DNA from: Clostridia bacterium
Lineage (GTDB): Bacteria; Bacillota; DTU025
Direction: 5' to 3'
Length of the DNA stretch: 61,001 bases
NCBI GenBank assembly: GCA_034926675.1
Contig: JAYFQW010000004.1
Coordinates: forward strand, 1-61,001
The notes under the pieces were generated by a model. It saw nothing but the letters and a program-made list of their open reading frames with translations, did not search any database and had not been told where the DNA came from. A program made the translations under genes and the position numbers. Positions 45,453-49,861 of this stretch are shown here, one piece after another (the stretch's first letter is position 1; every line of letters begins with the position of its first letter).

Positions 45453-47612
45453 TCAGCTGACGGCACGCCGAGAGGAAGCAGGCGGTCCGTACGCTCTAGT
45501 GGCATTCGCCACTGCGATCAGGGTGACGCCAACGTCCGCGAACACCGCGCTCCACATCGTCGCGATCCCTGCCGCTCCGAGAGCGAGCACCAGAGCCTTC
45601 ACAGAGAGGGCGAGAGTAATATTCTCAATGACAACCCGCCTGGTCGCATGCGCTACGTCTATCGCGTCTACGATACGGGCAGGGTTATCATCCATTATGA
45701 CCACATCGGCCGCCTCTATCGCAGCATCGGATCCGAGGCCGCCCATGGCCACACCCACGTCTGCCCGGGTAAGCGCCGGGGCATCGTTGATTCCATCGCC
45801 AACGAACACTACCTTGCCCCTGCCGCAACCCTTGCCGAAACCCCTGCCCTTGCCCTTGCCGAAACCTTTGCCTCTACCGAAACCCTTGCCCCCACGCCGG
45901 CCACTCTCCCGCTCCGCCATGATTGCCTCCAGAGCTGCAACCTTCTCAGCGGGGAGCAGGTTCGCGCTGTATTCGTCGATCCCCACCTGCCCCGCAACCT
46001 CCTCGGCCACCTGCGCAACATCGCCGGTAAGCATGATTACCCTGCTCACCCCGGCATCATGAAGACGCCGGATAGCGTTAGGAGCCGCAGGCTTCACCTC
46101 GTCGGCCAAACGAATCCTCCCTGCCAGAATTCCGTCAGCGGCCACATTGACCACGGTTCCATCCGTGATGCACGTATCGTGCTGCACATTCTCCCTATGA
46201 AGCAGCCTGTCGTTCCCGGCGAGCACCCGTTCACCCCTGTAGATCGCACGGACTCCGCATCCGCCCACCTCATCGGATTCACTGACCAATGAGCGGTCAA
46301 CTTCAGCGAGGTTTTCATACTTCTCCCGAATTGAAACCGACACCGGGTGCGTGGAATGGGCGCCTGCATGCGCTGCGATGCGTAGCACCTGTTCCTCGTT
46401 GTACCCATTCTCTCCAGTCACCTCCACCACTCTGAAAGACCCACGGGTGAGAGTGCCGGTCTTGTCGAAAATCACGGTATCCACCTGATTCAGAGCCTCG
46501 AGGAAGTTCGCTCCTTTGACCAGCACCCCTCGGCGAGAGGCGCCGCCGATGCCGGCGAAGTAGCTGAGTGGTATGGAGATGACCAGCGCGCAGGGGCACG
46601 AGATGACCAACAGGACAAGCGCCCGATGAAGCCACATGGAAAAGAGCTGCCCCGGAACGAGCAGCGGAGGAACAAGGGCGACGGTCGCGGCGACGCCTAC
46701 AACGGCAGGCGTATAGTACCGAGAGAAGGTGGTTATGAATCGCTCCGTCTGAGCCTTTCGGCCCGCTGCCTGTTCCACCAAAGACAAGACCCGCGCCACT
46801 GCCGACTCTGCGTAGGGCCTTTCTACTGAAAGCGTGATGACACCACTGGTGTTGACCATGCCCGCGAGGACCTCATCGCCCAGTCCCACGGGACGGGGCA
46901 TCGACTCGCCGGTCAGCGCCGACGTGTCCACAGACGATTCACCCTCGACGACCCTTCCGTCCAGGGGTGCTCTCTCGCCAGGCCTCACAACGATCCGGTC
47001 GCCAGGAGACAAGGATTCCGGCGCTGCCTGCACCACCTGTCCATCCCTGATCACCCTCGCCGAATCAGGACGAATGTCCATTAGCGAGGAGATCGCCCCG
47101 CGGGACCGCTCCACCGCAATGTCCTGCAGTATCTCTCCTATGGAGAAGAACACCATAACCCCTACCGCTTCAGGGATCTCGCCGACAGCGATCGCTCCAA
47201 CCGAGGCCACAGCCATCAGGAAGTTCTCATCGAATAACCGGCCGCGCACGATATTGAGCCCGGCGGAAGCCAAAACCCTCCACCCAGCCAGCACGTACGC
47301 CGCGAGCAACAGAACCAGCCAGGCCTTTCCTGCCCCCGGCACAGCGCCGAACCAGGCGCGAACAGCCATTCCCGCCGCAAACATCACCAGAGCCCCGCCT
47401 GTTTCGGCAGCGTGAAGCCTCTCGCTGCCAGGATCTCCGTGATCTCCGTGCGCGTGGTCGTGACGATGGCCTCGACCGAGGCTATGGTCGTGATCGTTAC
47501 AGTGGTCGCAGGCGTGGACGGGGCCGGAATCGTTCCCGGGTTTGCCAGCGTGATTCGGCTCGTTCCCGTGCCTTCCGACCGCACCGCACTTGTTGCTAGC
47601 TTTCATCCCCAT
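45453..47612 (-). CDS. Heavy-metal P1B-type ATPase
   Basis: Metal-exporting ATPase. The N-terminus is His/Asp-rich (residues about 30-60: CDHCNDHDHSLGRGHRHDHAH) instead of an HMA domain. Motifs in order: TGES (about 246), the transmembrane metal site SCPCAL, the phosphorylation site DKTGTLT, the nucleotide-binding HP in STHPVS, and GDGINDAP (about 605-612). CPC with a His-rich N-terminus suggests Zn, Cd, Co or Pb. An odd Gly/Lys/Arg/Phe insertion of about 31 residues (570-600) sits just before the GDGINDAP block. The gene is 5 bases downstream of the ArsR-type regulator, forming one operon. Confidence 0.95.
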   Translation of the reverse strand: MGMKASNKCGAVGRHGNEPNHAGKPGNDSGPVHACDHCNDHDHSLGRGHRHDHAHGDHGDPGSERLHAAETGGALVMFAAGMAVRAWFGAVPGAGKAWLVLLLAAYVLAGWRVLASAGLNIVRGRLFDENFLMAVASVGAIAVGEIPEAVGVMVFFSIGEILQDIAVERSRGAISSLMDIRPDSARVIRDGQVVQAAPESLSPGDRIVVRPGERAPLDGRVVEGESSVDTSALTGESMPRPVGLGDEVLAGMVNTSGVITLSVERPYAESAVARVLSLVEQAAGRKAQTERFITTFSRYYTPAVVGVAATVALVPPLLVPGQLFSMWLHRALVLLVISCPCALVISIPLSYFAGIGGASRRGVLVKGANFLEALNQVDTVIFDKTGTLTRGSFRVVEVTGENGYNEEQVLRIAAHAGAHSTHPVSVSIREKYENLAEVDRSLVSESDEVGGCGVRAIYRGERVLAGNDRLLHRENVQHDTCITDGTVVNVAADGILAGRIRLADEVKPAAPNAIRRLHDAGVSRVIMLTGDVAQVAEEVAGQVGIDEYSANLLPAEKVAALEAIMAERESGRRGGKGFGRGKGFGKGKGRGFGKGCGRGKVVFVGDGINDAPALTRADVGVAMGGLGSDAAIEAADVVIMDDNPARIVDAIDVAHATRRVVIENITLALSVKALVLALGAAGIATMWSAVFADVGVTLIAVANATRAYGPPASSRRAVS
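45813..45905 (-). repeat. Low-complexity insertion in the metal ATPase gene
   Basis: Degenerate 12-base units (variants of TTGCCGAAACCC on the plus strand) encode a GKGFGKGRG-like peptide of 31 residues in the hinge before GDGINDAP. Other P1B ATPases have only a few residues there. The repeat is in frame, so the enzyme may still work. Confidence 0.75.
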
Positions 47613-47617
47613 CGCCG

Positions 47618-48175
47618 CTACCGCTCCTCATCATAATGCTCCTGGGCAAGGTTGATCAGGCCGACTATGTGGTGATCCGCGAGCGCGTAGAAGACATGCT
47701 TTCCCTGTGGACGGGTTTTCACGAGGCGCAGGGCCCTCAGAAGCCTGAGATGATGAGAGACAGCAGGCATAGTGATCCCCAGTGCTTCTGCAAGTTCGCA
47801 CGTGCAAAGCTCCTCTACCGAAAGCATGTGGACTATCCGGCATCTGGTTTCGTCGCCAAGCACACGGAATATCTCAGATACCCCGGCCACAACAGGTACT
47901 CCAGCCACGCGGGACCCCCCGGGCGCCCCGGTAAACCCAGCCAGCGCAGCCACCCCGGCAACGCCGGCCACCTCAGTAAACCCAGAGGGTTCCGGAGTTC
48001 CCAGGGTGTCTTGAGTCTCCGTGAATCCATGGGCATCCGCAACAGCAGGGACAGCAGGAATGTCCGGGGCACGCCGGACAGCCGGGATAGCCCGGGCCCC
48101 AGTGCCGCAATCGAGGCAGGTTCGGCGACTCAGGTGAACGGGAGGCGACCCCGCTGCTGCTTTACGTTTCTCCAT
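47618..48175 (-). CDS. ArsR/SmtB-family metal-responsive repressor with extended N-terminus
   Basis: The C-terminal 95 residues are a standard ArsR winged helix (FRVLGDETRCRIVHML to KHVFYALADHH). The metal-sensing motif ELCTCELA is in the recognition-helix region, as in CadC/ArsR-type sensors of Cd, Pb, Zn or As. Before it stand about 85 residues of low-complexity sequence rich in Gly, Ala, Val and Pro, plus an isolated CLDCG. Such an extension is unusual. The start is set at the ATG at 48175, preceded by GAGGGGG; the frame to 48214 would run into the operator. Autoregulated together with the ATPase. Confidence 0.92.
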   Translation of the reverse strand: MEKRKAAAGSPPVHLSRRTCLDCGTGARAIPAVRRAPDIPAVPAVADAHGFTETQDTLGTPEPSGFTEVAGVAGVAALAGFTGAPGGSRVAGVPVVAGVSEIFRVLGDETRCRIVHMLSVEELCTCELAEALGITMPAVSHHLRLLRALRLVKTRPQGKHVFYALADHHIVGLINLAQEHYDEER

Positions 48176-48202
48176 ATCCACGCCCCCTCGCAGATCAGAT
48201 AG

Positions 48203-48226
48203 ACGATTAAGCAATCATCTAATCGT
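48203..48226 (-). promoter_or_regulatory. ArsR-type operator
   Basis: ACGATTA-N10-TAATCGT, a perfect 7-bp inverted repeat, lies just downstream of the promoter at 48234-48262 and 28 bases before the regulator gene. It overlaps the expected transcription start, the usual place for ArsR/SmtB binding and metal-dependent release. Confidence 0.65.
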
Positions 48227-48233
48227 TACCCAT

Positions 48234-48262
48234 ACGATATTCCACGTTCTCGCGAAAGTCAA
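48234..48262 (-). promoter_or_regulatory. Promoter of the metal-resistance operon
   Basis: On the minus strand TTGACT (48262-48257) and TATCGT (48239-48234) are 17 bases apart, followed directly by the ArsR-type operator. It reads toward the regulator and ATPase genes. Confidence 0.6.
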
Positions 48263-48505
48263 CTCCACAGACCTGTGGGGTTGTAGGGTTGAGGTCGACT
48301 CCATCCACAATATGGGAAGTCCGCGCCGTGACGCTAGGACTCACGTTTCGCACGTGACATATGGCAAGCAGGCATCTCGGAGATGACCAGCTAGGCTCAT
48401 TTTCCGCAGTAGGAATCTACTCCCTCGCCAGACCGCTCGTCTGGCGCCGCCCAAAATGCCGCGACTGAAGCATCTACGTGCGGAACGTGAGTCATGGAGC
48501 GACCT

Positions 48506-48794
48506 GTACGGAGATCTCCGAAAAACTCGGTGTTTCTCAGAGACCTGTACGGAATTCGTACTGCCAACACCGGATACCAGTACGGATTCCGTACAGCGCT
48601 GAAGGCAAGACCGGCGAACGATCCTCAAAAGCTGCTCCAAACTCCCGAAATATGACATATATGCACGCATTGCGGGCATATATTACCATTATCTAGGTGT
48701 TTTGGGCCCTCGCAGACCCATCTTTCATCGAATGAGTCCTGGGGCCGTACGCATTCCGTACTGGTTGCACGGCAAACCTGTACGAATTCCGTAC
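48506..48794. repeat. Ordered array of 15-bp palindromes in non-coding DNA
   Basis: Five variants of GTACGGAnTCCGTAC start at 48506, 48547, 48580, 48747 and 48780. The copy at 48580 is a perfect palindrome. Sites 2-3 and 4-5 are each exactly 33 bases apart, and the two pairs are exactly 200 bases apart. Between them lies an AT-rich block with the inverted repeat ATATATGC-N11-GCATATAT (48657-48683). The spacing suggests a protein-binding array. In one plus-strand frame each pair would also encode 11-residue repeats around VRIPY, so a decayed coding repeat is the alternative. Confidence 0.65.
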
Positions 48795-49307
48795 TACGCG
48801 CACGGGATTGACTGTGAGAATCATGAGATGACTTCGGATGCTCAGGACTCAGGGCGCCGGATCGACAGTTTTGCTGAAAATCGGACGCATGGGCAGGAAC
48901 TTCGAATTGGAACGGACCGTCAGCAGATGATGCTCGCAAGAGGCCCAGCAGCACGCGCAGCATCACATCACAGCAGCACAACGCAGCAGCACAACGCAGA
49001 GTCGCAGAGCAACACGCAATAGAACACTCTTCTAGGCCGATGCACCTCCGCGCCCGCGCTCCACCACAGCTCGGACGAGTGGGACGGCCTCGTCGCAGGA
49101 ATCAGCTCTGCCGAATGCTGTTTTCCCTGCATGCCTGCTACAACTGCTACGCTTGTCCATGCTCGCGCGGCGGGCTTCCACGCACAGCGGTGCTGATGAG
49201 CCCGTGGCGCCAGGACATCTGGCAACGGACGGAGTTGGAAGCCCAGAGGCTGGGCACTTGGGCCATCGGTATGCCGATGATCCGGGCGCTATGGCGCTTC
49301 CGATGGC

Positions 49308-49455
49308 GCGGGCTAACCCTGGGAAACTGCGGACTAGCCCCTGGTAACCGCGGGCTAACCCTGGGCTACCGCGGGCTAACCCCGGCAGTCCCGCCGACCC
49401 GCCAGTCCCGCCCGACCCGCCGACCCGCCCGACCCGCCCGACCCGCCAGCCCTGT
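49308..49455. repeat. Tandem repeats: four 21-bp units followed by a CGACCCGCC run
   Basis: Four adjacent 21-base units (consensus GCGGGCTAACCCTGGGnnACC) fill 49308-49391. A run of 4-9-base variants of GACCCGCC extends to about 49455. Upstream, 48970-49010 has doubled CAGCACAACG words. No convincing gene covers this part of the 48263-49474 gap, although a plus-strand frame (49040-49459) stays open through it. Confidence 0.7.
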
Positions 49456-49474
49456 CTGACCCTGATAGCCCCAG

Positions 49475-49861
49475 CTAGCTCTGGCCCGCCTCAGCCCTGG
49501 GCATGCTCCTGCTTGCGATGATGCTGACCCCTGTTCCTGCAACACTCTCCACGATCACCTGGTGAATCGCAACTGGCGCATCGACCCGTGTACTGGCTAT
49601 CTGCCGAAGTGCCTCCATGATCTTCTCCTTCGGGATCGGGGACGAGGTTCTCACGGGCACGAGTGGGAGGAAACCGCCCCTCACCCTCACAGTCGATGTT
49701 ACTGTCCTCTTAGGGGCGCAGAGCTCGTCAAGGGCGTACTGTGCACCTCGCTTGCAGCTATTGCCCTCAACCGACGTCACCTGGCCGCCCTCAAGCTTCA
49801 CCCGGAGCCTGCACCCGACAGGGCACACAATGCAGGTAAGCTCGCGTTCTTCCTCTATCAT
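49475..49861 (-). CDS. DUF1667 protein
   Basis: 128 residues with CIVCPVGCRL (about 10-19) and a further Cys in NSCKRGAQYA, the pattern of DUF1667. This small domain is always found beside the two flavoproteins encoded upstream, in anaerobic glycerol-3-phosphate oxidation clusters of Firmicutes. The cysteines may bind metal or Fe-S. It overlaps the preceding flavoprotein gene by 4 bases, so the three are coupled. Last gene of the glycerol operon; the exact biochemical role is not known. Confidence 0.88.
   Translation of the reverse strand: MIEEERELTCIVCPVGCRLRVKLEGGQVTSVEGNSCKRGAQYALDELCAPKRTVTSTVRVRGGFLPLVPVRTSSPIPKEKIMEALRQIASTRVDAPVAIHQVIVESVAGTGVSIIASRSMPRAEAGQS

Follow-up and report, generated by a model that had tools for sequence, protein, structure and literature searches.

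To our knowledge, bacterial chromosome-organising sites that are defined by sequence are few, and those that we can name are single short motifs. The structural proteins MatP and ParB have a small number of chromosome-wide palindromes each (matS and parS), and the ram sites of RacA are chromosomal palindromes of Bacillus sporulation. Dimeric regulators typically use palindromes of 15-21 bp, phasing by 33 and 200 bp suits cooperative looping, and AraC, GalR and LacI exemplify the looping operators. Noc has about 70 binding sites (NBS) per genome, each a 14-bp palindrome, and SlmA has 24-52 (SBS) per genome (PMC4726725); RefZ uses five nearly palindromic motifs (RBMs) in Bacillus sporulation (PMC6657595). 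Lastly, REPINs and BIMEs, with their RAYT transposases, lie between genes and consist of conserved palindromes paired in inverted orientation around a variable interior (PMC3116915, PMC2817692), a description that the present element also fits.

The window analysed here is a stretch of 61,001 nt, the entire contig C4 of a MAG of an uncultured Bacillota (3.38 Mb, 90 contigs), which carries spo0A and whose nearest named relatives, as judged by one protein, are unclassified Firmicutes MAGs at 63-65% identity. The element within it works somewhat like known dispersed chromosomal sites, and we claim membership in none of these systems. As with Noc and SlmA, palindromic sites of a kind that one protein could read are dispersed along the chromosome in numbers of similar magnitude, and, as with SlmA, Noc and RefZ, they are not tied to promoters; in contrast, the Noc and SlmA sites are single and depleted near ter, whereas here they form four-site units of fixed spacing on 90 unordered contigs. 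The sites of RefZ and RacA are likewise a few palindromes by which a spore former's chromosome is marked for a protein, and the genome studied here has spo0A, but those sites are single, have another sequence and keep their positions relative to oriC. The elements resemble matS and parS in being few chromosome-wide palindromes, and differ from them in sequence and in that those are single sites; a ParB-domain search of the genome gave one chromosomal ParB, on contig C9, which holds no element, and one weak partial match. Unlike REPINs and BIMEs, the family has no Y1/RAYT transposase, no recognised GTAG-tagged hairpin and nearly no singlets, and it combines 19 copies, as opposed to hundreds, with a rigid 200-bp ruler. 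Finally, DNA looping could bring together phased dimer sites that lie 33 and 200 bp from each other, as in operators of the AraC, GalR and LacI type, but the elements are not tied to promoters or to a functional regulon and often lie between convergent genes.

The window copy and its genomic family

The first-pass annotation had proposed five palindromic sites around an AT-rich inverted repeat, with two 33-base pairs exactly 200 bases apart. The window contains eight matches to the motif at up to three mismatches, as compared to 1.49 expected by shuffling (0 of 100 shuffles reach 8), and four of these have at most one mismatch. Their spacings (33, 167 and 33 bp) confirm the two pairs and their distance, and together they make up one element of about 248 bp, in which the 48-bp site pairs are each self-complementary and repeat one another in inverted orientation (Table 1). 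The proposed fifth site did not hold up: only its left half is intact, its right half is shifted, and it does not belong to the element that other copies conserve. The AT-rich inverted repeat is present in the window copy and weakly in its two nearest sisters, but it is not conserved across the family.

Table 1. Features of the window copy and its intergenic region (positions in the window).
Feature	Position	Strand	Remarks
Intergenic region with element	48215..49474	.	flanked by the start of the arsR-family gene and the 3' end of the DUF1667 gene
arsR-family gene	47618-48214	-	start at 48214
Half site GTACGGA(GATCTCCG), whole GTACGGAGATCTCCG	48506..48520	+	not a conserved part of the element
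Whole element by family-model match	48524..48806	+	199 bits
Site A, GTACGGAATTCGTAC	48547..48561	+	strong half (CCwGTACGGA) leftward, i.e. outward
A-B spacer, 18 bp	48562..48579	.	63% mean identity among copies; site-adjoining GG/CC kept as site extensions
Site B, GTACGGATTCCGTAC	48580..48594	+	33 bp (about 3 turns) from A; strong half leftward
Middle, 152 bp	48595..48746	.	length kept, sequence not; includes the AT-rich inverted repeat
Site C, GTACGCATTCCGTAC	48747..48761	-	200 bp from A; strong half rightward, i.e. outward
C-D spacer, 18 bp	48762..48779	.	between sites C and D
Site D, GTACGAATTCCGTAC	48780..48794	-	33 bp from C; strong half rightward
DUF1667 gene	49475-49861	-	3' end at 49475

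Several other repeats lie nearby. The CadA-type ATPase (45453-47612) carries a Gly/Lys-rich low-complexity insert, GKGFGRGKGFGKGKGRGFGKGCGRGK, directly before its GDGIND motif, and the DNA that encodes this insert is a tandem array (45812-45892); the ArsR protein (47618-48214) has a repeat insert rich in Ala, Val and Gly. Between arsR and the element is an 18-nt inverted repeat (48338-48355 and 48476-48493, 94% complementary, 120 bp apart), and downstream of the element are short-period tandem arrays at 48946-48999 and 49307-49449 (a 13-bp unit, CAGCAGCACAACG, and 21-bp and 9-bp GC-rich units). Comparable arrays adjoin copies L047, L048, L051 and L035.

The genome holds 19 such elements, all intergenic and dispersed, of which 18 are complete and one is cut by a contig end; statements on the whole genome rest on pattern searches of the assembly and on the 1.24 Mb of stretches that were examined. 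At up to two mismatches, the 15-bp motif has 81 sites, as compared to 22 for a reversed control pattern, and essentially all 81 belong to the 19 quartets of one geometry. Matches to the 33-bp pair pattern number 32 in forward and 33 in reverse orientation, and the control for this pattern has none. Outside the quartets, 1.24 Mb of the genome contains only two 2-mismatch sites, and the one that was inspected (L291) seemingly lies in coding DNA; this near-absence indicates that the sites exist as quartets rather than as single sites. The genome-wide search for motif and spacing, which the first-pass annotation had suggested, accordingly found recurrence within identical quartets only, and the motif is not common at random positions. 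Further, the family model finds no decayed or partial copies above noise (its best non-element match scores 12 bits), and a genome search with the 33-bp pair pattern found no longer version with the pairs further apart.

Across the 18 complete copies, the sites start at offsets of 0, +33 (18 of 18, in the element's orientation), +200 (n = 10) or +201 (n = 8), and +232 to 234; copies L047 and L048 have one pair spaced by 32 bp instead of 33 bp. Each site is a 15-bp palindrome, or about 21 bp with its CC/GG flanks. When 74 sites are turned outward, their consensus is CC(A/T)GTACGGA(A/T)T(T/C)CGTAC, with 10 of the 15 positions invariant in all 74. The outward half is the stronger one (position 6 is G in 70 of 74 sites, with CC ahead of it), while the inward half accepts T, C or others at position 10. 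Sites A and B therefore point left and sites C and D point right, a head-to-head dyad, and this outward polarity is fixed in the 74 sites. At about 10.5 bp per turn, offsets of 33, 200-201 and 233-234 are near whole turns, which would place all four sites on roughly the same face of the helix.

The 19 elements, about one per 180 kb, occupy 17 contigs, as compared to 15.4 expected at random placement, and the closest two that share a contig are 39 kb apart. Their placement agrees with a uniform distribution and hints at even spacing (P 0.07), and their orientation follows no consistent direction with respect to local GC skew.

Constraint on the sites, and coding, RNA and promoter readings

Pairwise identity between copies is 93% at the sites (gap-free), 63% in the 18-bp spacers and 53% in the 152/153-bp middle. 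When changes were counted by parsimony on a tree of the non-site columns, whose length is 5.2 substitutions per site, 2 fell in the 48 fixed site columns (0.04 per column, 46 invariant) and 551 in 151 middle columns (3.65 per column); the tree has long terminal branches whose copies keep intact sites. Six independent sister pairs have 0 changes at fixed site positions, as compared to 28.8 predicted from the divergence of their shared flanks (P ~3e-13). The rate of change in the middle equals or exceeds that in the shared flanks, yet the length of the middle varies by no more than 1 bp (152/153 bp in 18 copies). Sequence is thus conserved nowhere but at the sites, and length nowhere but between them, which is the signature of a protein that recognises four sites together with a ruler. 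Because the family is private to one MAG, selection is deduced here from paralogues only, and a hidden lineage of active copies that spawned all the others could, through selection for copying alone, give part of the pattern.

Three other kinds of constraint were weighed against these data. The 33-bp spacing is divisible by three, and the first-pass annotation had offered a decayed coding repeat (VRIPY, 11 residues) as one explanation. However, the window copy has stops in all frames, at most 5 of the 18 copies have any given frame open, the copies differ in length by 1 bp, and 200 is not divisible by three; the stops and the 1-bp changes refute a coding repeat, to which we give next to no credence.

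The palindromes might instead be hairpins of a structured non-coding RNA or of a DNA cruciform, since the 48-bp pairs are self-complementary and mutually inverted, and RNAalifold pairs site A with D and B with C. Against this, its covariation term is only -0.25 kcal/mol, double changes occur in only 2 of 28 pairs, and the T/A bases adjoining the sites vary without compensation. Moreover, the left wobble positions would pair on one strand only and the right ones on the other only, and Rfam gives no match. Structured RNA was rejected on the missing covariation (compensatory changes) and Rfam match, and this whole reading is very improbable.

Two promoter-related candidates were also set aside. 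The 33-bp spacing recalls the enhancer pairs of NtrC, but there are no sigma-54 -24/-12 sites within 350 bp of any copy. An invertible promoter of the Mpi/RecV kind was rejected on the grounds that the relative orientation of middle and flanks is constant within subfamilies and that no promoter is present; sigma-70-like sites in or near the elements are few and differ in place, and no sigma-70 promoter common to the copies was found.

Gene neighbourhoods, the origin of copies and searches in other genomes

The first-pass annotation had also suggested that the sites bind a dimeric protein, as an operator array or a segregation-like site. Sites that are palindromic, frozen and helically phased fit a dimeric protein, and their size of 15-21 bp and their 33-bp and 200-bp phasing suit a global regulator that binds two operator pairs about 200 bp apart, loops the DNA cooperatively and represses or activates the adjacent gene, the 19 loci forming its regulon. 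Several copies do lie 5' of a gene, including the window copy upstream of arsR. But among the 16 copies with both neighbours readable, 6 are between convergent genes, 9 between tandem genes and only 1 between divergent genes (L045, whose neighbour was recognised as FliS, is counted as tandem). The neighbours are also unrelated in function: they include arsR/cadA, DUF1667, POR with DUF3866, GntR, LysE, oligopeptide transporters, a histidine kinase, an FA_synthesis (fatty-acid synthesis) protein, a C69 peptidase, an L,D-transpeptidase, an amidohydrolase, MgsA, FliS, an NtrC-type regulator, a phosphofructokinase, a ribonucleotide reductase, a microcompartment shell protein and SIS proteins, and no neighbour function shared among the copies was found. 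The 6 of 16 convergent placements and the lack of shared function disfavour a plain operator array. The copies do not sit, as those of a regulon would, upstream of genes related in function and within reach of a promoter, and no common promoter was found inside or near the elements; furthermore, operator architecture varies across regulons, whereas the arrangement here is absolutely rigid. Overall, a looping operator is quite unlikely.

The flanks record how the copies arose. Sister copies have flanks in common of variable length, from 0 to ~230 bp on the left and from 10 to ~350 bp on the right, which indicates that copies were born by copying the element together with random neighbouring DNA. 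For example, L036, L038 and L052 have common left flanks, and the flank of L052 overlaps an alkaline phosphatase/endonuclease gene at the 3' end of that gene, and L047 and L048 have a common right flank that includes the 3' end of a nitroreductase gene but differ to the left of site A. The 3' ends of neighbouring genes have been copied along with the element, with variable breakpoints, in both groups. At the locus of copy L035, the POR-gamma and DUF3866 genes are adjacent in relatives too, where the gap between the aligned regions is ~37 bp in UBA5389 (L092) as compared to ~650 bp at L035. As a separate observation, the match to an MgsA-like gene in a same-family genome (L204, G003:C13:29737-31065) spans two in-frame TGA codons, the result of a broken gene, an assembly error or recoding.

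Such copies are what a miniature mobile element, REPIN- or MITE-like, would leave. A transposase acting in trans would recognise the paired inverted palindromes, and a copy would have to retain four good sites to go on spreading. Dispersed intergenic copies with subfamily flanks in common, the empty POR-gamma/DUF3866 locus in a relative (L092) and a bias away from divergent promoters are consistent with this, and inverted doublets of conserved palindromes around a variable interior recall REPINs (PMC3116915). However, the Y1 transposase that REP/REPIN systems need is missing: PF01797 (Y1/RAYT) has no match in the element-bearing genome but does match in 5 of 14 controls and in 4 of 12 genomes from the class. 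Nor do the copies have the constant ends of MITEs, with terminal inverted repeats and target-site duplications (the latter judged by eye only), as their flanks vary and include gene 3' ends. REPINs leave singlet relics (PMC3116915), whereas this family has nearly no singlets, its only candidates being the two 2-mismatch sites in 1.24 Mb, and neither decayed or partial copies nor a longer autonomous version with the pairs further apart. Finally, the sites stay intact on long terminal branches. A mobile element is the main rival reading but, on this balance, unlikely.

Searches elsewhere found the family in this genome alone. The exact pair pattern, run on 119 relatives including the element-bearing genome, matched only in the latter, and so did the family model among 12 genomes of the class, where one other hit was 12.5-bit noise. 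A looser GTAC frame, run on 398 genomes of the phylum (397 besides the element-bearing one), gave only two unrelated repeats. The element was not found in GTDB genome contigs, and an origin from a prophage, plasmid or phage was rejected after searches of plasmids and phages gave no matches. Individual matches were discarded on inspection: one in a viral contig (L067) is an unrelated GTACGCATTGCGTAC hairpin with no second pair; GTAC matches of 33-bp period in a genome of another family (G099, C9:35517-35630; L088, L090, L091) are, by translation by eye, a coding 11-residue repeat (GTxxVP); and one in G041 is a short unit in a tandem repeat. The same architecture with different palindromes was absent from a further 1.01 Mb of the element-bearing genome and from 436 kb of three same-family genomes, where only 2.4 would be expected at equal density, so that the latter absence is only suggestive. 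A literature search for the motif gave nucleosome papers only.

A candidate four-dimer platform

The MAG thus holds 19 dispersed, non-coding elements of about 248 bp that preserve four palindromic sites with their helical spacing, whereas the intervening DNA is free to change. The best reading, with a probability of roughly 0.45, is a platform of four protein dimers with a chromosome-level role, be it organisation, anchoring or division control. We infer a dimeric binding protein and a loop: a single sequence-specific protein would occupy each palindrome as a dimer, all four dimers would lie nearly on one helix face (33 bp is ~3.1 turns and 200-201 bp ~19 turns), and the two outward-facing pairs would clasp or wrap a loop of ~150 bp. 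The loop's sequence would be irrelevant, so that the middle would act as a ruler.

The chromosome-level role is more speculative. Dispersal at about one element per 180 kb, in intergenic regions of any type and with no shared neighbours or promoters, suggests that the complex may serve the chromosome rather than the adjacent gene, perhaps as a site for nucleoid organisation, anchoring or division control comparable in its working to those of SlmA, Noc, RefZ, RacA or MatP, but with four sites per locus. Several points count against the platform: the restriction of the family to one MAG leaves only paralogues from which to judge selection; duplications of the element to new places together with neighbouring DNA, and an empty locus in a relative, would also be expected of a selfish element; and, in place of quartets, the known analogues have dispersed sites that stand singly. 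A fuller version of the platform reading, which we hold more tentatively, is that the family represents chromosome-organising sites of a new type, rigid clamps of four dimers with a 200-bp, sequence-free DNA ruler at ~19 loci, which may have spread by small duplications, each copy being kept by selection for a chromosome-level function of a putative lineage-restricted DNA-binding protein.

If the family were selfish instead, it would be an element without the usual transposase, constant ends or dead copies. If the platform reading is true, four dimer sites and a 200-bp ruler, frozen at 19 loci, would amount to a novel chromosome-gripping or chromosome-looping architecture, and the element would be a ready-made probe with which to fish out its binding protein; it would also mean that a single lineage can have such a system to itself.
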